Virus record (IMG/VR): IMGVR_UViG_3300037427_001902 | Span: 1-58,068 of that record | Reading direction: 5' to 3' (one strand) | Origin: a virus | Length of the DNA: 58,068 nucleotides | Shown: positions 12,427 through 57,265 of the stretch, one piece after another | How the letters are laid out: each line of letters opens with the position of its first letter | Position numbering within the stretch: the first letter of the stretch is position 1 | Position numbers and translations under genes: made by a program | The notes under the pieces: model-generated | What the model was told of the DNA's origin: nothing | Database searches by the model: none | Seen by the model: the letters and a program-made list of their open reading frames with translations, nothing else

Positions 12427-13007
12427 GTATTTATGACAAGATTAACTGCTTCTTGTATGCTTAGATGTTGATATTGTGGTATTTGATTAATGTAATTGTA
12501 CATACGTTTTGGCTGGTTTTTTTCGTCTTTATCCTTAATTTCTTGCAAGGTAATGTCGTATCCAGGATTAACTTCTTTCATCTCTGATATTATGCTATCA
12601 ACAAAATTTAAATGATTGTGATGTGCTATTATTTGTGCTACGTCTGATACCACAATATTAGTAGGAGTATCTTCCCAATCCTCTGCAATAGTTGTTTCCT
12701 GACTTGCAGATATTAAATCTAATATATGTTCTACTCTAGGTCTACTTAGATAATATACTTCAGCATGAGGGAGATTACTTTTTAGCCAGGTGTTACCTAA
12801 GTCATGTTTCCAGTCATAAGGTACTTGGATTTTTGCAATACAGTTATTAGATTTCCACTTATTGCAAAAGTCATTATAGTATTGTGTAGATGTAAGTGCA
12901 ACATTAAAGTCCTCATATAAATTATAATCTATATTATTAGCATCTTTTAAACGTTCACTTACATAAGTTGATCCAGACCTTAATGCAGATACAACTAAGA
13001 CATTCAT
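12423..13007 (-). CDS. Sulfotransferase-like P-loop protein
   Basis: 194 residues. The N-terminal VVSALRSGSTYVSERL matches the 5'-phosphosulfate-binding loop of PAPS-dependent sulfotransferases (R-S-G-S-T), and VYYLSRPRVEHI near residue 90 matches the 3'-phosphate loop. It is shorter than typical sulfotransferases (about 250 residues or more). Its start overlaps the amidinotransferase stop by 4 bases (ATGA type), so the two are coupled and may modify the same small molecule or glycan. Acceptor unknown. Confidence 0.65.
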   Translation of the reverse strand: MNVLVVSALRSGSTYVSERLKDANNIDYNLYEDFNVALTSTQYYNDFCNKWKSNNCIAKIQVPYDWKHDLGNTWLKSNLPHAEVYYLSRPRVEHILDLISASQETTIAEDWEDTPTNIVVSDVAQIIAHHNHLNFVDSIISEMKEVNPGYDITLQEIKDKDEKNQPKRMYNYINQIPQYQHLSIQEAVNLVINT

Positions 13008-14071
13008 CTATATGACTCTAAGGTACCTTCCCTAACTAAGTCTTGACTCACACAATGTGGACCGCCTGCTAGAGTTCTCATATGACGCATTTGGACAGGT
13101 ACAGGTGTTATGCCATTTTGTTCCATGGCTTTCATTAAATGTATTTCTTCACTTGGTACTAAAACAGTATTAGGGTCAATAGAAAGTACATTCATTCCTA
13201 TCCAATCACTTGCCGGAGCATAATCTTCTAAGCAAGGTTGCCCTACACACATCTCTTCCGAGTACCATATTTTGTCCCATGATTTAAATAACTTAGGTAC
13301 TTTATCTTTGTCTACCCTACTTGAATTTAACACTACAAGCCCAGGACGTAACGGCATAATTGTACTGTCTACATGAGCCCAACTATATAAATCGTGCATT
13401 GTGTGAACTTTAAATGCGTCTCCGAGGGTGTTTTGTAGCCATTTAGCACCTTGCTCATTGCCTGTATTTGATATTAAATAAAGGATATCATATCCACATC
13501 TAATTAAATTAGCAGGGTCTAATATAGGTTCATTATTGTTTACACTTGGATCTCTACCTGGCTGTATTTTATACAAGTCATCTTGTAACATAGGCTTTGG
13601 CATAGGTAACCACTTAGCACCTTGCATACTTTTTTCTTTAAACAATTTATTAAACAAGAATGTCTCATGATATCTTGCTCTTAAACTCATAGCACCTTCT
13701 ATAATAGTATCGCCTATTACAGTTATACTATCACGTGGACAGTATGCTTCGTATTGTTGTGACTCCCATAAGCCATTGGAAACAGTACTAGCGAAGTCTA
13801 TGACACTTGTATCGGGTCTGTGTACCTTTACATCTGCCTGTTCTAGTATGTGAACTAGTGCAGATAAGTCCTCTTCTGCTTCATGATATACATGCTCTGG
13901 GTATCTACCCTTAGGCATTTTTGCATACTCTTCAGCACTTAGATTGGCATAGTTGGTTGCATGATGACTTAAATCATGTTCAGGTATGTTGGCATTTTTT
14001 GCCGTTCCAATTATTATTTCTTTAAGGGGGTCCCACTCGTTACAGGACCAAAGATTGCTATTAGGTTTCAT
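13004..14071 (-). CDS. Glycine/inosamine-type amidinotransferase
   Basis: 355 residues, similar in length to bacterial amidinotransferases. The N-terminus (SNLWSCNEWDPLKEIIIGTA) is the typical 'NEWDPLEEVIVG' start of this family. The catalytic set is visible: a His/Asp strand (AHVDSTIMPLRPG) and the C-terminal nucleophile in AGGPHCVSQD (Cys340, 16 residues from the end as in human AGAT). The enzyme moves an amidino group from arginine to an amine, making guanidino compounds such as guanidinoacetate. It is paired with a sulfotransferase-like gene. Its role in infection is unknown; arginine redirection or guanidino decoration are options. Confidence 0.88.
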   Translation of the reverse strand: MKPNSNLWSCNEWDPLKEIIIGTAKNANIPEHDLSHHATNYANLSAEEYAKMPKGRYPEHVYHEAEEDLSALVHILEQADVKVHRPDTSVIDFASTVSNGLWESQQYEAYCPRDSITVIGDTIIEGAMSLRARYHETFLFNKLFKEKSMQGAKWLPMPKPMLQDDLYKIQPGRDPSVNNNEPILDPANLIRCGYDILYLISNTGNEQGAKWLQNTLGDAFKVHTMHDLYSWAHVDSTIMPLRPGLVVLNSSRVDKDKVPKLFKSWDKIWYSEEMCVGQPCLEDYAPASDWIGMNVLSIDPNTVLVPSEEIHLMKAMEQNGITPVPVQMRHMRTLAGGPHCVSQDLVREGTLESYR

Positions 14072-28604: not shown

Positions 28605-29285
28605 TTACAACTTTTCTTCGACTAATGCTTTAGTGATAACTATAAATGCATCAGGATGTTTAAGTTTTACATAAAAATGGATATCTTCTGCATACTTGCT
28701 GTCGCAATATATAAAGTTCCATCTATGTTTTCTAGATTTATCAACCATATTTTCTATAGTTCGTATTGTATCTTGTCTAATTGTTCTAACTGCTTTAGAA
28801 TAATCGCTATTGATTATGCCCATAAAGTTATTATACTTTAGTTTGGTTCCTATCCATACTTTACAATCATATGTATTATGCCATTTAGTTTTTCTTATAA
28901 TAAGTTCTTCTCTAAAGTTTGGATTATGACGTTCTCCATTATGTTTACGTTCAAACAAGTATGCTATATGCTTATTAGATACAGGACCTTGAACTTTATC
29001 TATTTGGTCTGCAAACATATCTATAAAAAAATATAGTTTGTCTATGTCTTTAAAATATACATGCCTAGTGTGACCTGACTTAAACTTAGTATCTTCTCTG
29101 CCTACAGTTTCTAGCCAGTCATATATTTCTAATGCTCTACTAACATCATATCTAATTTGATTATCTATTAGTGCGGCTTTGTATGGATACTTGTTATAGT
29201 AAAATCTATCTGATCCTACTATTTCTGTATCAGGATACAACGTTCGGTCAATGTGTTGTATATTATTTAATGTTAATGTCGACAC
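28605..29285 (-). CDS. Hypothetical basic/aromatic protein
   Basis: 226 residues, rich in Lys, Arg, Tyr, Phe and His. I chose the GTG at 29285 because AGGAG lies 6 bases upstream; a GTG at 29306 is possible but has no site. Features include KSGHTRHVYFKDIDKLYFFI and RKHRWNFIYCDSKYAEDIHF. No known family; the basic-aromatic nature suggests nucleic-acid contact. It overlaps the end of the ClpA gene and is probably the last gene of the dnaJ-clpA transcript. Confidence 0.7.
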   Translation of the reverse strand: MSTLTLNNIQHIDRTLYPDTEIVGSDRFYYNKYPYKAALIDNQIRYDVSRALEIYDWLETVGREDTKFKSGHTRHVYFKDIDKLYFFIDMFADQIDKVQGPVSNKHIAYLFERKHNGERHNPNFREELIIRKTKWHNTYDCKVWIGTKLKYNNFMGIINSDYSKAVRTIRQDTIRTIENMVDKSRKHRWNFIYCDSKYAEDIHFYVKLKHPDAFIVITKALVEEKL

Positions 29286-31437
29286 CGTCTTCTCCTTTGG
29301 AAACACTTAATTCGACATCTTTTAATTCTTCAAACAATATACGTTTACTTAAAGGCTTTTTAAGTTTCTGTTCAAATAATCGTTTTAATGGTCTAGCACC
29401 CATAGACGGATCGTATCCATTTTCAACAAAATATTTTACAGCACTTGCATCTAATGTAATTATAATCTCTTTATCTTTTAATTGTAAATTAATTTCATCT
29501 TCTAAACGTTTTACAATTTTCTTAATAACAGGAGTTCCTAGTTTATTAAATTTAATTACAGCATCTAACCTATTTCTAAATTCTGGAGCAAAGAAACTTT
29601 TGATTGCTTTTATATCTGTATCCTTTTTCTTTTGGTCACCGAAACCAATCTTTAATGATTCAGCCGCCGATGCTCCTAAGTTACTTGTCATTAACATAAT
29701 AACATTAGTAAAATCTGTTGTTTTTCCTGTAGCACCTGTAAGCCTGCCATCGTCCATTACCTGTAACAATACTTGTAATACTTCTGGTGCGGCTTTTTCA
29801 ACTTCATCTAATAGTAATACACAATTAGGATTATCTTCTACAGTTGTAAGTAATTGTCCTTGACCCATCTTGCCTTCAGCATGTCCAACATATCCTGGAG
29901 GTGCACCAATTAATTTACTTACACTATGTCTTTCTTGATACTCTGACATATCAAAACGTATAAGTTTGGCTTCCATTTGGTCTGCTAATTGTTTTGCTGT
30001 TTCTGTTTTACCTGTACCAGTTGGGCCTACTAATAAGAAACTACCAACGGGTTTATTCTCTTCCCTAAGTCCTGCTTTAGCAACAAGTATCGCTTCTACT
30101 ATTTGATCTATGGCTTCGTCTTGCCCGTAAACTTTAGTCTTAATACGTTTGTCTAAACTTTTATATCCTTCTGTGCTGTCAACATCAATAACATCTTTAC
30201 CAATATTACTCATTTTACTAATAACATGAACAACATCTGATGTATTAACAATCTCCTCACCTCGTAATTTAACTGCGGCTCCGGCGGCGTCTACTACATC
30301 TACTGCTTTGTCTGGAAAGAATTTGTTTTTAATATATCTATCGGCTAAGTCGACACTCTTTGCAACTAGTTCGTCTGTGTATGTTACACCATGGAATTCT
30401 TCAAAGAAAGGTTTAAGTCCTTTCATTATTTCTATAGTAGTAGGAACATCTGTTGGTTCTATGTCAACACGTTGGAACCTACGCAATAATGCTTTATCTT
30501 TTTCAAAGTGTGTGCTATACTCATCGTTTGTTGTAGCACCCATAGTAAGTAGTTTACCTCTACCTAATAATGGTTTTAATAAGTTAGCAACATCAACGTT
30601 ACTACTTCCTGCACTACCGGCACCCATTATCATATGTATCTCATCTATAAACAAGATAACATTCTTATCTTCTTCTAAACTATCTAATACTGTTTTAATA
30701 CGTTCTTCAAAGTCTCCTCTGTACCTAGTACCAGCAAGTAAGGCACCAATGTCCAAACTGTATACTACTTTTTCTTTAAGAGCATTTGGCACTTGCCCTT
30801 CTACAATCTTTAATGCAAGTCCTTCTGCAATAGCAGTTTTACCTACACCAGGCTCACCAATTAATAGTGGATTGTTCTTTTTACGTCTAGCAAGGATATG
30901 TACTACATCACTGACTTCTTCTGCTCTACCAATTAAAGGATCTATCTCACTCTCACTGGCTTTTTTATTTAAATTAATTAGGAAGTCTTCTGCTTCTTTC
31001 ATGTTAGCAGTATTCATTGCTGTTAATACTTGTACTACAGCCAGTCTATCTATACCATTTAGTTCACAAAGATATTTGGCATGTGTATCATCTTCACTAA
31101 GAATACTAACAAATAAATCTATACTGCTTACTTGGTCTCTAGCACTAAAAATAACTTGAGCAAATGCTCTTTGCATTACACGTTCTACACTTGCAGTTTT
31201 CTTAGGCTTACCATCGTAAGGAACATCTCCTTTTAAACCGTTTGTAGAGTCATCGTCTAAATAGTTTTTTAAATCTTGTCGTGTAAGTTCTACATCACAT
31301 TCAAAATTATCTAGCAATTCTATAATTGCTTCTTCTTCCAAACAACATAACATTAAATGTTCTAATGTCACATATTCGTGATTTTTATCTGATGCATAAT
31401 TTACTGCACATGTTATTACATTATCTAATTGGCTCAT
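29263..31437 (-). CDS. clpA: ClpA-type AAA+ unfoldase
   Basis: 724 residues, near the length of bacterial ClpA (about 750). Order: N-domain with two Clp-N repeats (about 1-145), first AAA+ with Walker A GEPGVGKT (194-201) and FIDEIH (263-268), second AAA+ with GPTGTGKT (471-478) and LLLDEVEKA (541-549). There is no long middle (ClpB) coiled coil. The loop SLKIGFGDQ (594-602) sits where ClpA carries the ClpP-docking tripeptide; IGF is the form used by ClpX. With the ClpP at 48948-49535 it could make a complete phage protease. It follows the DnaJ gene by 8 bp. Confidence 0.93.
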   Translation of the reverse strand: MSQLDNVITCAVNYASDKNHEYVTLEHLMLCCLEEEAIIELLDNFECDVELTRQDLKNYLDDDSTNGLKGDVPYDGKPKKTASVERVMQRAFAQVIFSARDQVSSIDLFVSILSEDDTHAKYLCELNGIDRLAVVQVLTAMNTANMKEAEDFLINLNKKASESEIDPLIGRAEEVSDVVHILARRKKNNPLLIGEPGVGKTAIAEGLALKIVEGQVPNALKEKVVYSLDIGALLAGTRYRGDFEERIKTVLDSLEEDKNVILFIDEIHMIMGAGSAGSSNVDVANLLKPLLGRGKLLTMGATTNDEYSTHFEKDKALLRRFQRVDIEPTDVPTTIEIMKGLKPFFEEFHGVTYTDELVAKSVDLADRYIKNKFFPDKAVDVVDAAGAAVKLRGEEIVNTSDVVHVISKMSNIGKDVIDVDSTEGYKSLDKRIKTKVYGQDEAIDQIVEAILVAKAGLREENKPVGSFLLVGPTGTGKTETAKQLADQMEAKLIRFDMSEYQERHSVSKLIGAPPGYVGHAEGKMGQGQLLTTVEDNPNCVLLLDEVEKAAPEVLQVLLQVMDDGRLTGATGKTTDFTNVIMLMTSNLGASAAESLKIGFGDQKKKDTDIKAIKSFFAPEFRNRLDAVIKFNKLGTPVIKKIVKRLEDEINLQLKDKEIIITLDASAVKYFVENGYDPSMGARPLKRLFEQKLKKPLSKRILFEELKDVELSVSKGEDGVDINIK

Positions 31438-31445
31438 ACTAGTAT

Positions 31446-32243
31446 TTACATTTCCTTGTCTTTAAATTCTTTTATTTTTCGTATATCTTCATCACTTAGT
31501 TTGGGTGAAGTCACTCCAACTATTACATATAAATCACCTATACGCCCATTGGTAGGATTAGGCATTCCTTTACCAGGAAGTCTGAGTCTACTATTAGGTA
31601 AACTTCTACTTGGAATTTTTACTTCAAATTGTTTTCCATCTATATGTGGGAATCTTATCGAAGTGCCTATCATGGCTTCGAAGTAATCACATTCAACTTT
31701 AATAATTAAATCATCGTTATGTCTATCCCATTCTGGCAAATTAATTACATGTATTCTACAAATTAAATCGCCGGGAGGAAGTTGTGAATGCTGTTGTGGA
31801 CCTTTGCCATGCATAACAAATTTTGTTCCGTGATATGTACCTGCAGGAATAGTTAATTTATATTTTGCAAAGCCAACATCTATAGTTTTTTCACACCCTG
31901 TATAAACTTCTGCAATGTCTACATGTACGTCACATACTCCGTCTGGATTACGAGCAGGCTGGCGTCTTTGTCCAAAGCCTCCTCCAAATACTTCACTAAA
32001 TATATCTTGGAAGTTACCTTGACCAAATGGATTGCCTCCCATTTGAGCAAACGGATCTGGATTATCGTATTGTTGTTTCTTTTCGGGGTTACTTAATGTT
32101 TCGTATGCCTGTTGGATTTTCTTAAACTCTTCCTCATCACCACCTTTATCAGGGTGATGTTTAGAAGCAAGTTTCTTGTATGCTTTTTTAATTCCATCCG
32201 GTGTAGTTGTGTGATTCACACCTAATGTTTCGTAATAATCCAT
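31446..32243 (-). CDS. DnaJ/CbpA-type co-chaperone
   Basis: 265 residues. A J domain (1-65) with the HPD motif (30-32) that stimulates Hsp70, a Gly/Phe-rich linker (about 66-95: GGNPFGQGNFQDIF), and the two beta C-terminal substrate-binding domains (KTIDVGFAKYKLTIPAG and onward). There is no Cys-rich zinc finger, so it is of the CbpA (class B) type. It heads an operon with ClpA and has its own sigma-70 promoter, 7 bp from the ATG, which would give an almost leaderless mRNA. Likely role: passing substrates to host DnaK and to ClpA. Confidence 0.93.
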   Translation of the reverse strand: MDYYETLGVNHTTTPDGIKKAYKKLASKHHPDKGGDEEEFKKIQQAYETLSNPEKKQQYDNPDPFAQMGGNPFGQGNFQDIFSEVFGGGFGQRRQPARNPDGVCDVHVDIAEVYTGCEKTIDVGFAKYKLTIPAGTYHGTKFVMHGKGPQQHSQLPPGDLICRIHVINLPEWDRHNDDLIIKVECDYFEAMIGTSIRFPHIDGKQFEVKIPSRSLPNSRLRLPGKGMPNPTNGRIGDLYVIVGVTSPKLSDEDIRKIKEFKDKEM

Positions 32244-32249
32244 ATTGCT

Positions 32250-32278
32250 ATTATAAGTTATAGCAACAACAAAGTCAA
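32250..32278 (-). promoter_or_regulatory. Sigma-70-type promoter of the dnaJ-clpA operon
   Basis: Minus-strand TTGACT (32278-32273), 17 bp, TATAAT (32255-32250), ending 6 bp before the dnaJ-like ATG at 32243. Confidence 0.78.
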
Positions 32279-32291
32279 GTTAAAATTGTGT

Positions 32292-32522
32292 TTATATACG
32301 TTCGTCGATGTATGTGATAATGTCTTGTATTGTTTCAAAATTATCTACATCAGCGTCTTCGATAACAATATCAAATTCTTCTTCAGCATCTATAACAATT
32401 TCTACAGAATCTAAACTATCAAAGTTTAAATCTTCAAATAGTTTTGCTTCTGGAACAATTTTATCTTCGTCTATTCTTAGTTCGACAAATAATGGTTTAA
32501 GTCTATTAAATGTATCGCTCAT
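32292..32522 (-). CDS. acpP: Acyl carrier protein
   Basis: 76 residues, the usual ACP length, strongly acidic. NFDSLDSVEIV matches the DSLD/E phosphopantetheine site, with Ser36 as the attachment residue; a third helix EEEFDIVIEDAD and a final IQDIITYIDE complete the four-helix fold. It would need a host holo-ACP synthase. It carries acyl chains for fatty acid, lipid A or modification reactions. It follows the putative outer spanin gene by 7 bp, on the same transcript as lysis-type genes, and no ketosynthase or acyltransferase partner is seen in the window. Confidence 0.93.
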   Translation of the reverse strand: MSDTFNRLKPLFVELRIDEDKIVPEAKLFEDLNFDSLDSVEIVIDAEEEFDIVIEDADVDNFETIQDIITYIDERI

Positions 32523-37701: not shown

Positions 37702-37905
37702 ATGGCAAAAGCAAAAAAGCGATATAGTTTTTATAAAACTTGTACTTGGAGAGTAGTAGCAAGTTTAGATACTTTCTTACTGAGTTGGTTAATTACAGGA
37801 AATATAGTTGCGGGTGTAAGTATAGCAAGTTTAGAAGTAATTACTAAAATGTTTTTATACTATGCTCATGAGAGACAATGGGAAAGGTTTATTAGAACGA
37901 GATAA
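37702..37905 (+). CDS. DUF2061 family membrane protein
   Basis: 67 residues from the ATG at 37702, with AAGGAG about 10 bases upstream. Two membrane segments surround TGNIVAGVSIASLEV, and the ending YYAHERQWERF matches the DUF2061 signature (K..LYY.HER.W). The family is a small bacterial membrane protein of unknown function. It overlaps the convergent alcohol dehydrogenase gene by 14 bases. Presence in a phage is unusual enough to note; a role at the host membrane is inferred. Confidence 0.85.
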   Translation: MAKAKKRYSFYKTCTWRVVASLDTFLLSWLITGNIVAGVSIASLEVITKMFLYYAHERQWERFIRTR

Positions 37906-38914
37906 TGTTGTCAAATATTTCTTGAAAGTCTTGTGCTTTAAAAGTTACAGGGTGACTAATATATGCAGAGTCCTGTACAGCCTGAGCAATAAATCTATCT
38001 TCATGCTCGTCGGTATACCTAGACATCAAATTCCATTCCACAATATAATGTTTATATATTGACAGAACTTTTTCAATGTCAATGTATTTGTATACATCAG
38101 GATCATACTCTAATGTTTTTGCAATTACAAATGGTGCAAACAAACAATTAAGTTCACCGTGAGATAAACTAGTATTGTTTGCAATAGCATAAGTTATTGT
38201 GTGTATATGTCCTAGTCCACAGTCCATTGCTTTGCTACCAAGTAATCCTGCAATAGCCATATCTATACGCCATTGCTTGTCTATAGTTTCTGTGGGTAAA
38301 TGTTGTGTTATTAGTTGTACTCCATACAGAGCACTACCGTCTGCTACAGGGTTCTTTAGACTGCTTGTCGCTCCTTCTAAGCAATGAGTTAAGGCATCGA
38401 GTGCCACAACAACACTAATTTTATGTGGTAAAGTGTGTGCTAAAATAGGATCAATTAGTATAACATTTGGCTGTACGGCTACGTCATACACACTTTTTTT
38501 AGTTAAGTCATCTCTAACAACCATAAAACCTTTGGTTAGTTCAGTTCCAGCATACGTTGTAGGACATGCTATAAAAATAACATGGTTTCCTATTTCTTCA
38601 TACATTATGCCTTTGGCTAAATCAATTACACTTCCACCACCTATTGCAATAATAGTATCGCATTGAGATTGTACAAAAATATTGTGTGCTTGTTGAATAC
38701 TATTTGTAGTTGGATCTACAAAACTATCTATTAAATATGCTACGTTCTCAAATCTACATTTATCAAGTTCTTGTTTTATTAAGTCCATATTAATACTGCT
38801 ACTTGCTATAACAAGTACTTTACGCATATTAAGGTCAGGTTTTAATTCTTTAAGCCATGGACCAAAGCCATGTTCTTCAATAATAATGTCTACGTTTTGT
38901 TCTTTAAATCTCAT
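37892..38914 (-). CDS. Iron-type alcohol/glycerol dehydrogenase family
   Basis: 340 residues from ATG 38914; a TTG at 38929 is an alternative. Signatures: nucleotide loop IAIGGGSVIDLAKG, CPTTYAGTELT, the iron ligand segment ALDALTHCLEGATS, and the SHGELNCLFAPFV histidine region. This is the type III (iron or zinc) alcohol dehydrogenase superfamily, which includes glycerol, lactaldehyde and phosphonate-linked dehydrogenases. Substrate is not determinable. It overlaps the preceding methyltransferase-like gene, so they are coupled. Confidence 0.9.
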   Translation of the reverse strand: MRFKEQNVDIIIEEHGFGPWLKELKPDLNMRKVLVIASSSINMDLIKQELDKCRFENVAYLIDSFVDPTTNSIQQAHNIFVQSQCDTIIAIGGGSVIDLAKGIMYEEIGNHVIFIACPTTYAGTELTKGFMVVRDDLTKKSVYDVAVQPNVILIDPILAHTLPHKISVVVALDALTHCLEGATSSLKNPVADGSALYGVQLITQHLPTETIDKQWRIDMAIAGLLGSKAMDCGLGHIHTITYAIANNTSLSHGELNCLFAPFVIAKTLEYDPDVYKYIDIEKVLSIYKHYIVEWNLMSRYTDEHEDRFIAQAVQDSAYISHPVTFKAQDFQEIFDNIISF

Positions 38915-39527
38915 CTTTTCTAAGTGCAATCATAAAATGGTCTTCGCCTAGTTCTGGTTGGTCCCAGTTAGTATCATAATATTTTTCATATTCGCATTGT
39001 TTACTTCTTACAAATAAATCTACTTGACGCCTTATAGCAATTTTATCATAGTCTGGTATAAGCATAATGCCGCCAGGCTCTATTCCAGACCACCATAACT
39101 TAATTGTTTCACCTACGACTAGGTCTACACTATTAGGACTCTGTGGCAATTTGTAAGGTAAGTTTACATACACTAAATCATATGGACCATCTGCTACAAT
39201 CTGAGGTTGGTCTACTTCTAAAGGAGTTGTACTATGGAAATGTATTTGGTCAAATAATATATTACCGGCTTGTTCTTTACGCAACTCTTGTAACGATTGT
39301 TGTAATCGTTCTTTATGTTCTTTGCCAGTTGGATGTAAGTCAAATACATCATGCAAATGAATATCAACATCTGTTTGGTTTCTTACACCAGTAATAGTGT
39401 CCAGTTTGGTTTGCATGAACTCATTAATTAATACTTGAGTTTCACTCTCTTGAGCATAATGGAATAAAACAGTGAAGTGGTCTTCAGCCAGACTCTTGTC
39501 TAACTCATGCTCGGCTTTTAGGTACAT
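38904..39527 (-). CDS. Hypothetical protein, possible methyltransferase C-terminal fold
   Basis: 207 residues. The C-terminal half (YDLVYVNLPYKLPQSPNS, SGIEPGGIMLIPDYDKIAI) resembles motifs IV and V of class I methyltransferases of the SAM_MT 24 sort, but the SAM-binding motif I is not visible. The N-terminal half contains a histidine-rich section (DVDIHLHDVFDLH). It overlaps the alcohol dehydrogenase gene downstream by 11 bases and abuts a small gene upstream. Confidence 0.6.
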   Translation of the reverse strand: MYLKAEHELDKSLAEDHFTVLFHYAQESETQVLINEFMQTKLDTITGVRNQTDVDIHLHDVFDLHPTGKEHKERLQQSLQELRKEQAGNILFDQIHFHSTTPLEVDQPQIVADGPYDLVYVNLPYKLPQSPNSVDLVVGETIKLWWSGIEPGGIMLIPDYDKIAIRRQVDLFVRSKQCEYEKYYDTNWDQPELGEDHFMIALRKDEI

Positions 39528-47715: not shown

Positions 47716-48595
47716 CTAACTGCCCCTCAAATTCGTGAACTTGAGAGTAGTAAAGTAATGTTTCTTCGTTTATTCCGTTGTGATTATGTCTCTCTTGCAC
47801 TACTATATTTAAGTTAGGCAATGCATTTTCGAACATTTTTTCGATAACATAACTTTTCTCTTTACCGCCTAAATTCAAATCCCAACCTGCAATAAAATGT
47901 GTTGGCGGAAATAATGCTTCTTCTTGTGTTGCATACTTTTCTTTTATCTCTAATTTTCTTACATCATTAAGTGGAGCACTATCAAATCCTCTACCAATGT
48001 ATTTTGAAACAACATCTGTTATATCGTCTGTAACAATAATTAATGTATCAAGCACATTATCTTCACTATGTAAATCCCAAAGTATATTAAATCTGTTTTG
48101 ACTACAAACACCTGTTATATAATTTTCTGTTGTTTTTACAATTCTTAATTTAAGTTGGTCTACTAAAGTATTTCTGATATTAGAACTGTTACATCTATAT
48201 ACAACACCACCAAAGAACTGTAATGCATCTTGTGTACCTGCTTGTCCTCTTAAATTAAAATGTTCGTCAAATACTTTTTTAAATCCTTCAACAGGGTAAG
48301 TATAGATGTTTAATCCGTTAGGGTCTTTGTATAGGTTAAGTCCTGTTGTTTCACAGTGAATACTGCCATCTGGTGCAATAGGTGTGTTTAGTCCTAATCC
48401 TGTTAGTCCTGTTTCAATTTTATCATTAATAGTTAGTAGTAATACGCAACCATTACAAGACCACATTGTAGCCTTTTCATTAATTGCATGGCTTATTTGT
48501 TGAAAGCCTAAACCACGTAAAGCGATAATAACATCGCCTGGATCGTATTCGTTTCTGTTTACAGAATATTCTATGAAGTTAAGTTCAGACATCAA
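47708..48595 (-). CDS. Possible VOC-fold (HPPD-like) protein
   Basis: 295 residues. The N-terminus (NFIEYSVNRNEYDPGDVIIA, LRGLGFQQISHAINEKATMW, CNGCVLLLT) resembles the first beta-alpha-beta-beta-beta repeat of 4-hydroxyphenylpyruvate dioxygenase and other vicinal-oxygen-chelate proteins. The metal ligands (two His and one Glu) cannot be assigned with confidence; HNHNGINEETLL at the end is a candidate. Low to moderate confidence for the family, high for the gene. It overlaps the HesB-like gene by 11 bases. Confidence 0.6.
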   Translation of the reverse strand: MMSELNFIEYSVNRNEYDPGDVIIALRGLGFQQISHAINEKATMWSCNGCVLLLTINDKIETGLTGLGLNTPIAPDGSIHCETTGLNLYKDPNGLNIYTYPVEGFKKVFDEHFNLRGQAGTQDALQFFGGVVYRCNSSNIRNTLVDQLKLRIVKTTENYITGVCSQNRFNILWDLHSEDNVLDTLIIVTDDITDVVSKYIGRGFDSAPLNDVRKLEIKEKYATQEEALFPPTHFIAGWDLNLGGKEKSYVIEKMFENALPNLNIVVQERHNHNGINEETLLYYSQVHEFEGQLVE

Positions 48596-48935
48596 ACGTC
48601 ACCGATTCCCCACAGCCACAACTTCCTAGTGCCTTAGGGGAGGTAACTGTTAGTGTCTTTCCTTTTATACCTTCGTCCTTCAAATCAATAATGCTACCAA
48701 CTAGAAAATCTGAACTCATATTGTCTACGAGTAATAACTTATCTCCTAATAGTAATTCAGTATAATCGTCTGGTACTTCATTAACGACTTCCCAGTCGTA
48801 TTCAAATCCTGCACAACCGTTTGGCATTAGTCCTAAACTAACACCTATAGAATCGCCAATCTGCTGAAGTAAGTGTGCTTTTGCACTTTCTGTAACTGAA
48901 ACAAGTTCTGTTGGGTTAAAAACATTTATAGTCAT
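48585..48935 (-). CDS. A-type Fe-S carrier (SufA/IscA/HesB-like)
   Basis: 116 residues. The three conserved cysteines of A-type carriers are all present: Cys41 in PNGCAGFEYDW and Cys106/Cys108 in LGSCGCGESV. The strand order in between fits (LLVDNMSSDFLVGSIIDLKD). Such proteins take [2Fe-2S] or [4Fe-4S] clusters from the scaffold and insert them into target proteins. It follows ClpP by 12 bp and is two genes from SufE, so it is part of a phage Fe-S set. Targets could include the radical SAM protein of this genome. Confidence 0.92.
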   Translation of the reverse strand: MTINVFNPTELVSVTESAKAHLLQQIGDSIGVSLGLMPNGCAGFEYDWEVVNEVPDDYTELLLGDKLLLVDNMSSDFLVGSIIDLKDEGIKGKTLTVTSPKALGSCGCGESVTFDV

Positions 48936-48947
48936 ACTATTACTTAT

Positions 48948-49535
48948 CTATCTCTTAGTAATAATTTCGTCTACCAGCCCAAAATCTAAGGCTTCTTTGG
49001 CAGTCATAAAATTATCTCTGTCCATAGCACTTTCAAAGTCTTGGAATGTTTTATCTTTAGTATTATGTCTTACATACACTTCAGTAAGTTCTTTCTTAAT
49101 TCTTACAATCTCTTTAGCACGGATTTCTATATCACTTGCTTGTCCACTTGCACCGCCTAATGGTTGGTGTATCATGTGTCTAGCACCTGGCAACATATAA
49201 CGTTTTCCAGCCGCACCCGACTGTGCTAATAAACTACCCATTGAAGCCGCTTGTCCCATTACAATAGTTGAAATATCTGGTTTAATGTATTGCATGGTAT
49301 CGTACATAGCCATACCACTTGTAACTACACCGCCTGGCGAGTTAATGTAAAAATTTATATCTGTATCTGGATCTTCTGCTTCTAAAAAAAGTAACTGAGC
49401 ACAAATACTATTACTTACAGTATCGTTTACTTCTCCGTTTAAAAACACAATACGTTCTTTTAATAATCTACTATAGATATCATAACTACGTTCGCCATTA
49501 CTTGTTTTTTCTATTACATATGGTACAAAATTCAT
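48948..49535 (-). CDS. clpP: ClpP protease subunit
   Basis: 195 residues, the normal mature ClpP length. Catalytic triad complete: Ser98 in [10 protein letters not shown], His123 in HMIHQPLGG, Asp172 in SAMDRDNFM. The N-terminal [15 protein letters not shown] and [13 protein letters not shown] are standard ClpP. This is a house-keeping-type ClpP, not a diverged prohead protease. It should form the tetradecameric chamber and could pair with the phage ClpA. It overlaps SufE by 4 bases (ATGA) and has GGAG in front. Confidence 0.97.
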
Positions 49536-49927
49536 TTAGTTTCTCCGTTAACAATTAATTTTAATTTACGCAAGAAACTTTCTATGCCTCTTACTCTTCC
49601 CCACGTTACTTTTTCAGGACAAATAAATGCAAAGTCGTCTACTTTAATTTTACCTATCTCTTCATCTGTCATGTGTACAACATGAGTCATCACTACATTT
49701 ATTAGACCTTGTACAAAAAATGCATTGCTCTCCCAGTACCAGTTATCGTCAATTCTATTGACCCATACTAGACTTTGACAACCGTATACACGATTATCAT
49801 CTATACATAATTCATCTAGTAGTTCCTTAGTTGGTACCGTATCGACTCCTTTTTCTACGATTAATTCGTACAAGTCGCTAGGCTCTAATTCATTAAGGAA
49901 GTCTAAATCTTCTTTGTCTAATTGCAT
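49532..49927 (-). CDS. sufE: SufE-type sulfur acceptor
   Basis: 131 residues. [14 protein letters not shown] with Cys50 is the SufE/CsdE active-site motif (V.GCQS.VW), followed by the expected strand [17 protein letters not shown]. SufE takes persulfide sulfur from a SufS-type cysteine desulfurase for Fe-S assembly; a SufS gene is not in the window, so the host enzyme would be needed. The ATG at 49927 lies at the predicted transcription start of the promoter 49934-49962, with no ribosome site, so the mRNA is probably leaderless. Confidence 0.9.
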
Positions 49928-52043: not shown

Positions 52044-53924
52044 TTAAGTATTTTGACTGATTATGGATTTGCCCCAACCTTGTCTGCGTCTGAAGTATAA
52101 TCTATTAAAGTATTCTTCGCCTTTGACATGTTCGGCAATGTCGAATTGATAATTGTCTTTTGTACTTGTAAGTTCTTTATCTATACCGTTTATGTATTCG
52201 TAAAAGTTATATCCAGTGTTTGCCCAGTATGGATATACTGTATCTTCTGCTGTAGTATAATTATGTTGGAATTGTAATAGATGTTGATACATATGGTCAT
52301 CTAGGTTACAGTATTCTTGTGTAAGATGTTTCTTTACAAATTCTTTAATTGCTTTATCGTTTTTGTGGAAGTCTGTTTGTGCCTCCCACATTAAAGTATG
52401 ACCACTAAACCCTTGTAGTATGCCAGGACCATCGCTTCTACCTGTTTCTAAATAAAATGTAATTTGTTCTTTTGCTGTTCGTATTAGTTGACCAACTACA
52501 CCTTCGTCTTCTAAACATGCTTGGAAAAGCATATCGTATGTTTGCTCATACTCAATACCATTCTTCTCATATATTAATCTTGCTATTGCTTGGCTCCAAC
52601 CATAGTTATGAAAGTTATTAATAACCCATGCATATAACCAACTGTCAATAAACTTTGGCGTTGGCATATATTTTGTACCTGTAACTAAATTAACTTTTTC
52701 AAAGATATTATCTTCCTCTTCGAATCCACTAACATAGTTTTCTACAACAACTGTTGTAATACCATGCTTTTCAATTTCTGAAGGTAAGTTCATATGTGCG
52801 TTTTCTAACATTTGTGCTAACCAACTTTCTATAGCATTGTGTTGTCCTGCTTTAATTACTTCACACAATCCTGCTTTCCAACTTTCATATGTTTCCTTAG
52901 GTAAGCCTAATATAAGTTCTGTATAACTAGGTATGCCTTCCCTATTGCATTTTTCAAAAATCATTTTGAGGTCAGACATTTCCATATTACGTCTTTTAAT
53001 TTCTTCTAATACATCCATGTCCATACTTTGCACACTAAGAGTTAGTCCTCTATTGAAACCACTGCTAATAAACTTCTTAACAATTTCTAAAATCTCATCA
53101 CTACTATTCTTATACCAAGTAGCATCTACTACTTTAGGAAATCCATTTTTGTTTTGTAAGTCAACTAACCTTTCTGTAAACTCTAAGTCTCTATCTGTGA
53201 ATACGCCAAAGTTTGCATCAGCAATAGTAACATAGTCTATTTGTCGTTCTGACATCCATGTAAGTTCCTGTAATACTTTTGGTATAGGAAACTTTTTAAT
53301 CTTAGCATAGGTTAAACTACCCCAATCACAAAATGTACATGCAAAAGGACACCCTCTATTTGTTTCTATGGTTCCGTTCCATAGTTGGTCTTTAGGTGCT
53401 TCAGCCATTATCTTATCAAATACTCCTGTAAGATATGGGCTGGGTATGTCTAAATCCACTAGTCGCTCGCCTTCATAGACGTCTTTTAACGGCTTTTTGT
53501 GTAATATTGCGTCAAGAATGCTTACAAAAGACTCTTCGCCTTCTGTGAGACTAATGCTGTCGACGTATGGGTGATGTTTGAAGAATTCTTCTTCTTGTGG
53601 TCTAGTCGTGACTTGAGGACCACCAAATACGATTTTGATGTCCGGATTTTCAATCTTTAATTGTTCAGCGATATGCTTATTGTATTCCCAATTCCACATG
53701 TAATTGGAAAAGAATGCAACCTTGCAATTCTTAATACGTTGTATTAATTTGCTAGGTTGCTCACGTTTGTATATTAAGTCTTGAACTTCAAAATTGTCTG
53801 TTACCCAAGTATGCTTACTTGCATAACTCCAAAGACATCCAACAGAATAAGGTAGCCAGTAACCTGTAAAACTACCGCCGCCGATTTTGAAGTTGGGCTG
53901 AACTAAAACAATTTTTTCTTTCAT
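52044..53924 (-). CDS. Radical SAM protein with B12-binding-like N-terminus
   Basis: 626 residues. Residues 1-150 have the Rossmann-like cobalamin-binding fold of B12-radical SAM proteins (VFGGPQVTTRPQE, VDSISLTEGEESF), although the DxHxxG motif is not seen. The core motif RGCPFACTFCDWG gives Cys192, Cys196 and Cys199 for the [4Fe-4S] cluster; LILGLPKETYESW is the typical late segment. The long C-terminal region (400-626) is unassigned. Possible chemistry: methyl transfer or ring/thioether formation. Its cluster need fits the phage Fe-S genes at 48.6-49.9 kb. Confidence 0.88.
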   Translation of the reverse strand: MKEKIVLVQPNFKIGGGSFTGYWLPYSVGCLWSYASKHTWVTDNFEVQDLIYKREQPSKLIQRIKNCKVAFFSNYMWNWEYNKHIAEQLKIENPDIKIVFGGPQVTTRPQEEEFFKHHPYVDSISLTEGEESFVSILDAILHKKPLKDVYEGERLVDLDIPSPYLTGVFDKIMAEAPKDQLWNGTIETNRGCPFACTFCDWGSLTYAKIKKFPIPKVLQELTWMSERQIDYVTIADANFGVFTDRDLEFTERLVDLQNKNGFPKVVDATWYKNSSDEILEIVKKFISSGFNRGLTLSVQSMDMDVLEEIKRRNMEMSDLKMIFEKCNREGIPSYTELILGLPKETYESWKAGLCEVIKAGQHNAIESWLAQMLENAHMNLPSEIEKHGITTVVVENYVSGFEEEDNIFEKVNLVTGTKYMPTPKFIDSWLYAWVINNFHNYGWSQAIARLIYEKNGIEYEQTYDMLFQACLEDEGVVGQLIRTAKEQITFYLETGRSDGPGILQGFSGHTLMWEAQTDFHKNDKAIKEFVKKHLTQEYCNLDDHMYQHLLQFQHNYTTAEDTVYPYWANTGYNFYEYINGIDKELTSTKDNYQFDIAEHVKGEEYFNRLYFRRRQGWGKSIISQNT

Positions 53925-54226: not shown

Positions 54227-55174
54227 TTATAAACTCCTGTCTAGTTTGTCTAATATAGCGAATCTGTCGCTAAATACAGGATGAACTAAGTTGAAAGGAT
54301 TTGCTCTTTTAAAAGCAGTACCTTTAACTCTATTAGCGACAAGCCATGCTTTATCTCTAATTTCATCGTCTTCTATAGTATTTATATGCTTTCTAAGGTT
54401 ATCTTCATTAATTTCAGGTAAACTTAGTAGTTCAAATAATAATATATCAAACTCTAAATAGTTCATTCCGAGTTGGTCCGCATCACTAGTACTTATGCCT
54501 AACCCGTCTGTAGGTAGTGCTGTAATAGTGTTTTTCGGTATATCTAGCATGTCTGCTAGTGCTGGTACCTCCCAACTTTTTGTTAGTGATTGTATAGGTG
54601 CAATGTCTCCCACATCACCATGTAATGTCCAAAACCCTGCGGCTAATTCACTAAAGTTATCTGTACTTGCTACACATCCGTTAAGTTTGTGTGCAAGATT
54701 ATATAGAGTAATCATTCTCAATCTTGCTCTAATATTTCCTTGCCTTTGTTGCCCTTTGTATGTATTTCCAGTTGTTCCTAAGAAATTTAACATACTGTCA
54801 AACTGTTCTGATAGGTCGTAATGGTGCTTTTCTAATTGTAAAGCATCAATGTTTTCAATACCTCTATTTGTTTCTTGTTCTATTTGATGAATAGGCATTG
54901 TTACACCATGTGTAATCCAACCTGCTTGTTTAAATAATGCGGCAGTTAAGGCACTATCAATGCCTCCACTTTGTCCTACTACTATATTTTCTATGCCATG
55001 TTTATGTTTATAATCTTTTAATCCTGCAACAATTTTTTCAACAATATTGCCTAGTGTTGCTCTTTTAGGATATATCCCTTTGTCTATTTGGTATGCTAAT
55101 TTATCAATGTACCATTCGTCTATTGCTTCTCCATCTCCTGGAGTTAGTTTTAAAATATCGTCAATTAACTTCAT
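54227..55174 (-). CDS. nadE: NAD+ synthetase (NadE, ammonia-type)
   Basis: 315 residues. PP-loop SGGIDSA (69-75) binds ATP; later TDNFSELAAGFWTLHGDVGDI and LPTDGLGIS.SDADQLG are NadE hallmarks. It converts nicotinic acid adenine dinucleotide to NAD+. There is no glutamine amidohydrolase domain, so it would use ammonia. The N-terminal 60 residues are somewhat unlike the short NadE. It overlaps the cupin gene by 14 bases and is followed 1 bp later by the SAP-like protein. Likely role: keeping NAD+ levels during infection. Confidence 0.93.
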   Translation of the reverse strand: MKLIDDILKLTPGDGEAIDEWYIDKLAYQIDKGIYPKRATLGNIVEKIVAGLKDYKHKHGIENIVVGQSGGIDSALTAALFKQAGWITHGVTMPIHQIEQETNRGIENIDALQLEKHHYDLSEQFDSMLNFLGTTGNTYKGQQRQGNIRARLRMITLYNLAHKLNGCVASTDNFSELAAGFWTLHGDVGDIAPIQSLTKSWEVPALADMLDIPKNTITALPTDGLGISTSDADQLGMNYLEFDILLFELLSLPEINEDNLRKHINTIEDDEIRDKAWLVANRVKGTAFKRANPFNLVHPVFSDRFAILDKLDRSL

Positions 55175-55679
55175 CTTTTTTAATGTCCTCTGGAGATTTA
55201 AGTTTAATCATCTCCGCTATTTTTTCTCTTGTTACACCTCTTCGTAACCAGAATTTTAAATCTTTTGTGGGTTTGCCTTTATCCATAAAAAACGAACCCA
55301 TTTTGCCATGTTGTCCTTTTACAAAAAATGTTACTGCATATCCTCCATCAGGGATTTCAACTCTATGGAAATCATTGTGACTACGCCAAGCAAACCAGCC
55401 TGGACCTCTCCACTTTCTTTCCTTACCTCTAACCTCATAGTATCCTCCCGACAGTATGAGTGTAAAGTAACCCCATGGATGATTATGCTCTGTGGGTAAA
55501 TCACTTCCTAATATTAAGTTTAAACAAACTCTACCACCATGGTAGTCACCTGCTATTCCTTTTCTATGAATTTGTCTACCCAAAAATACTCTGTGCATAT
55601 ATTCAAAGTCAGTATATATGTTCGTTAAGGTCTCTGTGCCTCTACGTTTTGCTAACCACCAAAATATTTTTTGCCACAT
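55161..55679 (-). CDS. Cupin-fold protein
   Basis: 172 residues. The double-stranded beta-helix is suggested by LPTEHNHPWGYFTLILSGGY with YEVRG and SHNDFHRVEIPDGGYAVTFF; His residues in HNH and H..FHRV could bind a metal. An Arg-rich, Trp-rich N-terminus and a basic C-terminus flank it. Candidate functions are a cysteine-dioxygenase- or isomerase-like enzyme; substrate unknown. First gene of the cupin-NadE-SAP-radical SAM operon, after the terminator at 55718-55748. Confidence 0.75.
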   Translation of the reverse strand: MWQKIFWWLAKRRGTETLTNIYTDFEYMHRVFLGRQIHRKGIAGDYHGGRVCLNLILGSDLPTEHNHPWGYFTLILSGGYYEVRGKERKWRGPGWFAWRSHNDFHRVEIPDGGYAVTFFVKGQHGKMGSFFMDKGKPTKDLKFWLRRGVTREKIAEMIKLKSPEDIKKDEVN

Positions 55680-56479: not shown

Positions 56480-57265
56480 TTAATCTCGGAGTTTTTTGTT
56501 GGTCTGTACTGCTTTACGCAATACACTCATCTTGATATTTTTGTTATTTGCATAGTGTAGTAATGCTTCTGTGTCTTTAGGGAAACAATGTCCTCCAAAT
56601 CCAGGCTCTCCATCCGGGCCAGGTACTTTCATATGGCTATTGCCTATACGGTCATCTCTACTTAACATGTCTGTAAATTGTTCCCAACTTACCATACTAC
56701 TTCCTAGTTCATGTAGTTGTTTTAATTCGTTAAAGAATGTTACTTTAGTTGCTAACCAACTGTTAATTGTGTATTTTAAAAGACTTGCTGTGGTTAAGTC
56801 TACTTTAAATGTAGGTACAATTCTAACTGAACTGTGTCTAAGATATGCTTTTTCAACAACTTCACAATCTCTCCACTTGCCTCCAAATACTTGGAAGGGA
56901 GGATTTTTAAAGTCTTCATTTGCATTTGATTCTGTAAGAAACTCTGGATTGTAAACTATTTTTAAATCAAACTCTTTTTTAAATTCATGTAAGTAATCTG
57001 GTATAATTGTACTTTTTACAACTACAACACCCTTGTAATCTCGCATAGATAATTCTATTAAAACATCATGAACTATGTCTACATTTATACTGCCATCTTC
57101 GTTAGGTGGTGTTGGTACACAAACAAATACTAATTTACAATCTAATACATCTGTTATTTCATTATCGGTATATTTAGGATCTACTATAACTTGTTCACAG
57201 TCTTTGTCAAAGCCATGTGCTACTGCTGAGCCTACAAATCCTTTACCAATAATACCTAATTTCAT
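56480..57265 (-). CDS. UDP-glucose/GDP-mannose dehydrogenase, short form
   Basis: 261 residues. N-terminal Rossmann motif GKGFVGSA (7-14), VFVCVPTPPNEDG, KSTIIPD, the helix YTINSWLATKVTFFNE and the catalytic cysteine loop GFGGHCFPKD (Cys227). It ends just after the central domain; the C-terminal UDP-sugar-binding domain (another 130-180 residues in ordinary enzymes) is missing. So it may be a minimal enzyme, or use another substrate. The stop is clean and there is no remnant behind it. Suggests nucleotide-sugar oxidation for virion or host glycans. Confidence 0.9.
   Translation of the reverse strand: MKLGIIGKGFVGSAVAHGFDKDCEQVIVDPKYTDNEITDVLDCKLVFVCVPTPPNEDGSINVDIVHDVLIELSMRDYKGVVVVKSTIIPDYLHEFKKEFDLKIVYNPEFLTESNANEDFKNPPFQVFGGKWRDCEVVEKAYLRHSSVRIVPTFKVDLTTASLLKYTINSWLATKVTFFNELKQLHELGSSMVSWEQFTDMLSRDDRIGNSHMKVPGPDGEPGFGGHCFPKDTEALLHYANNKNIKMSVLRKAVQTNKKLRD

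Follow-up and report, generated by a model that had tools for sequence, protein, structure and literature searches.

Does a jumbo phage carry a Clp protease of its own, with unfoldase, peptidase and chaperone feeder all encoded by the virus? The question is raised by a 58,068-nt stretch of viral DNA (positions 1 to 58,068 of IMG/VR record IMGVR_UViG_3300037427_001902), hereafter the window. The window is part of the genome of a jumbo T4-like phage, distant kin of Atu_ph07, Phosso and the Rak2/GAP32 group. In a DNA polymerase comparison, the nearest cultured phages are Phosso and Atu_ph07, followed by phages of the Vibrio 2.275.O/XaC1/GAP32 type, all at less than 50% identity. A preliminary description of the window proposed that full-length ClpA and a DnaJ form one operon, and this holds: both genes lie on the minus strand with DnaJ upstream, separated by 8 bp. 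The relevant features are as follows.

29263-31437, minus strand: ClpA, 724 aa, with Pfam domains Clp_N, AAA, AAA_2 and ClpB_D2-small (phrog_4871, 805 bits)
29641-29649, minus strand: codons of the IGF docking tripeptide (ClpA residues 597-599), aligned without gaps on IGL 617-619 of E. coli ClpA
31446-32243, minus strand: DnaJ, a J-domain protein without a zinc finger, 265 aa, with Pfam domains DnaJ and DnaJ_C
32278-32250, minus strand: sigma-70-like promoter TTGACT-17-TATAAT, 11 of 12 matches, with the -10 box 6 nt before the DnaJ ATG
48948-49535, minus strand: ClpP, 195 aa, with an intact Ser-His-Asp triad, 17.5 kb from ClpA

We consider it likely that these genes specify a ClpAP protease dedicated to the phage and fed by DnaJ, for which we infer complex formation, early timing and the use of DnaK and ClpS. 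Judged by sequence, all parts are present with intact catalytic and docking residues, and the assignment draws further on conserved co-occurrence and synteny and on the promoter class. The set is real and conserved, and the DnaJ-fed phage ClpAP that it encodes is probably functional.

The window ClpA has the domains of a class I Clp/Hsp100 unfoldase: Clp_N, D1 and D2 AAA+ modules, pore loops, two Walker A motifs (residues 194 and 471) and two Walker B motifs. The ClpB-type middle domain is absent. A phmmer search of the PDB matches it to E. coli ClpA at 627 bits, with an N-domain match and a continuous D1-D2 alignment over residues 147-707. The bacterial ClpA equivalog model TIGR02639 scores highest of all models, yet its 840.6 bits fall short of the cut-off of 993.15. 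Under that rule, the protein is classed as a divergent phage ClpA rather than the bacterial equivalog. In the PDB alignment, the window segment KIGFGDQ pairs residue for residue with SIGLIHQ of E. coli, where IGL forms the docking loop, so that D2 carries a loop of the ClpP-docking form [I/V/L]G[F/L]. The placement of IGF at the docking loop, on which the preliminary description relied, is thus borne out. When the window ClpA is aligned with those of 80 IMG/VR loci, 81 phage sequences in total, the triplet reads [IV]GF throughout (IGF in 70, VGF in 11). Its mean entropy is 0.19 bits versus 2.10 bits in the flanking loop columns, and the triplet therefore appears strongly constrained inside an otherwise variable loop. 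IGF by itself is no special sign, because xGF is the bacterial norm: among 80 bacterial loci and E. coli, the triplet is IGF in 38, VGF in 20 and LGF in 14. The N-domain residues E23, T26, E28 and T81 are near-invariant in the phage alignment. These presumed ClpS contacts are not used as proof of ClpS binding, because the TxEH stretch is generally known as a motif of the Clp_N fold common to all such domains.

The constrained triplet bears on a different reading, in which the main task of DnaJ and ClpA is non-proteolytic chaperone work in virion assembly, in replication or in the remodelling of proteins. The operon sits amid virion structural genes, as it also does in PA5oct. P1 RepA can be remodelled by DnaJ/DnaK or by ClpA, a general precedent for such activity. 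Assembly roles have been proposed by the Atu_ph07 authors, who list ClpA, ClpP, ClpS, ClpB, ClpX and DnaJ and suggest aggregate clearance, replication or assembly as their functions (PMC6102473), and by a jumbo-phage survey (PMC7824862). However, a pure chaperone would have no need of a ClpP-docking triplet, which is invariant here in a drifting loop, and ClpP co-occurs with ClpA. We regard this reading as quite improbable.

The preliminary description also reported a catalytically complete ClpP 17 kb away, and the gene found there qualifies. ClpP scores 308 bits with NCBIfam NF001368, above the cut-off of 249, and 292.7 bits with TIGR00493, slightly below the cut-off of 308.6; its close relatives include solved bacterial ClpPs. 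By the NCBIfam rule, it is classed as a full-length true ClpP. Relative to E. coli, the hydrophobic docking pocket retains Y62, I90, M92, L114 and R192, with conservative changes at F82Y, F112Y, L189I and V28I; Y60N differs. The fold is full length, and the triad and pocket are retained across the window clade. The gene lies in an operon with the following elements.

49962-49934, minus strand: sigma-70-like promoter TTGACA-17-TACAAT, with the -10 box 6 nt before the SufE-like ATG
49532-49927, minus strand: SufE-like gene, first of the operon and overlapping the ClpP start (PF02657, 45.7 bits)
48585-48935, minus strand: SufA/IscA-like gene directly downstream of ClpP, with NCBIfam ErpA/SufA matches that are all under curated cut-offs

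The SufE-like gene adjoins ClpP in three other records (G001, G003 and G013) as well, and the SufA/IscA-like gene in G006. With these genes on either side of ClpP (48585-49927, minus strand), the operon resembles a small Fe-S assembly set.

Could this ClpP instead serve in head maturation, as a prohead protease with no relation to ClpA? Its PHROG matches carry that name, and the GAP32 copy is annotated likewise. Nevertheless, the model for ClpP-like head maturation proteases (NF045542) gives 103.8 bits, below its cut-off of 120, versus 308 bits above cut-off for NF001368. ClpP length, pocket and C-terminal Arg are all retained, and the gene is encoded alongside SufE/SufA-like genes. This identity is very improbable.

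An early-type promoter had been described ahead of the DnaJ-ClpA operon, and its presence and conservation are confirmed. A near-consensus sigma-70 site precedes DnaJ in the window and in every locus of the set L002-L015 that retains the true start, ending 5-8 nt ahead of the ATG; L009, which lacks the gene start, was left outside this comparison. Similar sites precede the ClpP operon in G001, G003, G013 and G014. The matching promoter type on the two operons suggests joint control. Across the window, 11 sites (e.g., 3587-3560, 12426-12398, 32278-32250 and 49962-49934) have at least 11 of 12 matches, versus about 3 expected under a Markov model. Several of the 11 end 2-8 nt before an ATG, which suggests leaderless early mRNAs. 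The T4-type late promoter TATAAATA occurs twice versus 10 expected and is uninformative here.

The preliminary description held that phages rarely carry unfoldase and peptidase together, and it proposed co-occurrence in related phages as a test. The first statement is wrong for this group, and the test turned out in favor of the pair. In the window clade (ClpA identity of about 58% or more), 11 records extend more than 12 kb upstream of ClpA, and 11/11 have ClpP there, same-strand and 10.7-17.5 kb away; near-copies are included among the 11 (G009/G010/G011 and G003/G062). Only 12 clade records are without ClpP, each with no more than 11.3 kb upstream of ClpA. When records were sampled via DNA polymerase, independently of ClpA, both genes were found in 4/4 IMG/VR records of at least 90 kb. 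A full-length ClpP-family (PF00574) protein is present in all ten complete or near-complete ClpA-bearing jumbo phages (PA5oct, Phosso, Atu_ph07, SCTP-2, Vibrio 2.275.O, GAP32, 121Q, XaC1, Kaldavass and CBB), versus one of ten jumbo phages lacking ClpA (phage G). ClpS matches at E<0.001 in the same ten, nine of them above cut-off with XaC1 just below, versus 0/10. Carrying both ClpA and ClpP is usual in ClpA-bearing jumbo phages.

Phage ClpA could also act chiefly on the host peptidase, hijacking host ClpP or forming mixed complexes that redirect the host protease, with phage ClpP as a supplement or in a separate role. The E. coli and phage ClpPs share about 60% identity and most of the pocket; some large ClpA-bearing records in which no ClpP was found still keep the IGF/VGF triplet. 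Against this stand the constant presence of ClpP in the window clade wherever the sequence reaches and the correlation between ClpA and ClpP distances (Mantel r 0.71, 0/2000 permutations), which is as expected for long co-inheritance. We consider such hijacking unlikely. The two proteins also change together in one group. GAP32, 121Q, CBB and Kaldavass have LGM, IGM or MGM as the ClpA triplet, together with an altered pocket in the co-encoded ClpP. This joint change is consistent with ClpA docking on the phage's own ClpP. The triplets of Vibrio 2.275.O and SCTP-2 differ again (IGV and IGY).

Several observations weigh against a dedicated phage protease. The co-change of triplet and pocket is confined to one lineage. 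The Fisher test for co-occurrence in the 10 versus 10 jumbo phages gives p of about 1e-4 with relatedness ignored. No ClpP was detected in G045 (330 kb), G047 (188 kb) or G021 (139 kb), all with ClpA, and an own ClpP is therefore not obligatory in the wider group. Finally, the Rak2-like ClpP-family protein is divergent and annotated as a head maturation protease.

DnaJ was called CbpA-like in the preliminary description, which fits its domain layout. The HPD motif at residue 30, the DnaJ_C domain and the absence of CxxC zinc motifs place it with type II (CbpA-like) proteins; the model for CbpA proper, NF007618, gives 109.8 bits versus a cut-off of 403. In 70/80 viral loci, ClpA is preceded by a same-strand DnaJ open reading frame (ORF), and seven of the ten without it have less than 0.9 kb of upstream DNA. 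In contrast, bacterial ClpA is adjoined by ClpS in 75/80 loci and by DnaJ in 5. By this comparison, DnaJ beside ClpA is classed as a conserved phage arrangement. In 38 viral loci the DnaJ-ClpA gap exceeds 150 bp, and all 25 gaps that were read contain a peptide deformylase ORF with GIGLAAxQ, EGCLSxP and HExDHL-type motifs, in agreement with the Phosso annotation. These loci range from L027 to L081; two examples are given here, together with the gene in PV764938.1.

L028, 9486-9980: peptide deformylase between DnaJ and ClpA
L057, 9197-9763: peptide deformylase between DnaJ and ClpA
PV764938.1, 124937-125455: peptide deformylase between DnaJ and ClpA

A search across the 58-kb window found no peptide deformylase. 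Directly upstream of DnaJ, at 32292-32522 on the minus strand, is an acyl carrier protein gene with a DSL phosphopantetheine motif.

ClpS adds N-degron clients to ClpAP. None was found in the 58-kb window, which stops 8.5 kb beyond ClpP. In four close relatives, ClpS lies 18-28 kb beyond ClpP, and the equivalent site would thus fall past the window end. These copies keep N34, D35 and H66, which we take to be the N-degron pocket residues of E. coli ClpS.

G003, 82629-82859: ClpS, N-degron pocket residues kept
G062, 135058-135288: ClpS, N-degron pocket residues kept
G001, 58677-58910: ClpS, N-degron pocket residues kept
G006, 65463-65693: ClpS, N-degron pocket residues kept

In GAP32-like phages, ClpS is present and the pocket residues are lost. 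No phage DnaK/HSP70 scored above cut-off in 35 records; for this reason, host DnaK is the presumed partner of DnaJ.

These data, read with established knowledge of ClpAP, DnaJ/DnaK and ClpS, allow a mechanism to be proposed for the dedicated phage protease. Host sigma-70-type promoters would switch on both operons, probably early. DnaJ would recruit host DnaK, keeping clients soluble or unfolded, and ClpA hexamers would receive these clients via the N-domain. Client delivery in close relatives is probably helped by a phage ClpS, whose gene lies in another part of the genome. With its IGF loops docked in the hydrophobic pockets of the 14-mer formed by phage ClpP, ClpA would then unfold the clients and thread them, and ClpP would degrade them. 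The preliminary description envisaged a complete phage protease aimed at host or defence proteins. The ClpA and ClpP pair with an intact docking triplet is well supported; nothing found points to host or defence targets. A wider version is conceivable, in which a large jumbo-phage group has a self-contained, host-independent ClpS-ClpA-ClpP pathway, DnaJ-fed and often deformylase-coupled. This pathway would be a long-standing phage lineage, distinct in its docking specificity, and would rewrite the host proteome early through N-terminal signals. We offer it tentatively, as a possibility with a modest chance of being right.

The origin of the phage ClpA was addressed with a maximum-likelihood tree. 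A single clade, fully supported, unites the 23 bacterial ClpAs to the exclusion of all phage ClpAs, and recent capture from a host is therefore ruled out. Three bacterial-labelled sequences (L239, L240 and L247) group with the phages and have DnaJ, not ClpS, beside ClpA; they are likely misbinned phage DNA. All three are contigs of metagenome-assembled genomes (genome_contigs), labelled Rickettsiales, Pelagibacter and Neomarinimicrobiota. Matches to Acinetobacter phage MD-2021a were rejected as phage evidence; the ClpA contig has an adjoining clpS, plus argC and aroF, and is bacterial.

Clp genes are already known piecemeal in jumbo phages, both from Atu_ph07 and from the jumbo-phage survey. 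In Atu_ph07, DnaJ (gp293) is directly upstream of ClpA (gp292) on the same strand, with ClpP (gp676) and ClpS (gp708) elsewhere in the genome (PMC6102473), whereas the window clade has ClpP 10.7-17.5 kb from ClpA. Its ClpA and ClpP are 42% and 63% identical to those of the window, and it also has ClpB and ClpX. PA5oct shares the order PhoH, structural genes, DnaJ, ClpA, structural genes with the window and has ClpP and ClpS, but its ClpA and ClpP are 45% and 51% identical, and its ClpS and ClpP lie in a separate cluster with ClpX and FtsH. Within 12 kb, that cluster (L234; MK797984.1, 169742-181020) encodes ClpX, bS21, a heat-shock protein, ClpS, an FtsH-interacting protein, FtsH and ClpP. The PA5oct ClpP is flagged ESI-MS/MS (electrospray ionization tandem mass spectrometry) in that record. 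Sinorhizobium phage Phosso has DnaJ upstream of ClpA, together with ClpP and ClpS, but a peptide deformylase stands between DnaJ and ClpA. In Sinorhizobium phage AP-J-162, the deformylase (gp154) and DnaJ (gp155) have consecutive numbers (PMC11242549). E. coli ClpAPS has the same domains, catalytic residues and docking loop as the window; bacterial ClpA differs in lying beside ClpS rather than DnaJ and in forming a separate clade. In moraphages, ClpA is a core gene, and DnaJ and DnaK occur too (PMC12619734). The RB43 J-domain protein is a phage J protein that acts with host DnaK (Perrody 2012, as cited in PMC12619734), and no link to ClpA is stated there.

The remainder of the window includes the following metabolic genes.

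13004-14071: arginine deiminase/amidinotransferase-like
37892-38929: Fe-type alcohol dehydrogenase-like
52044-53924: B12-binding radical S-adenosylmethionine enzyme
54227-55174: NAD synthase
55161-55679: cysteine dioxygenase-like
56480-57265: UDP-glucose dehydrogenase

In the literature found, the parts of this system have appeared mostly as scattered single-genome annotations, with ClpP, ClpS, ClpA and DnaJ discussed separately. Iyer et al. (2021) cover the phage forms of ClpP, ClpA, DnaJ and ClpS, the last as a feeder of host ClpAP, each as a separate gene of patchy occurrence (PMC7824862). A literature search, thin on subscription papers, found no description of the DnaJ-(deformylase)-ClpA order or of joint ClpS/ClpA/ClpP retention. 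The present analysis adds joint retention across a deep jumbo-phage set, a phage-specific gene order, conserved docking residues and matching promoters. It makes testable the question of whether an N-degron/ClpAP protease encoded by these phages may be at work in infected cells, and which proteins it would destroy.

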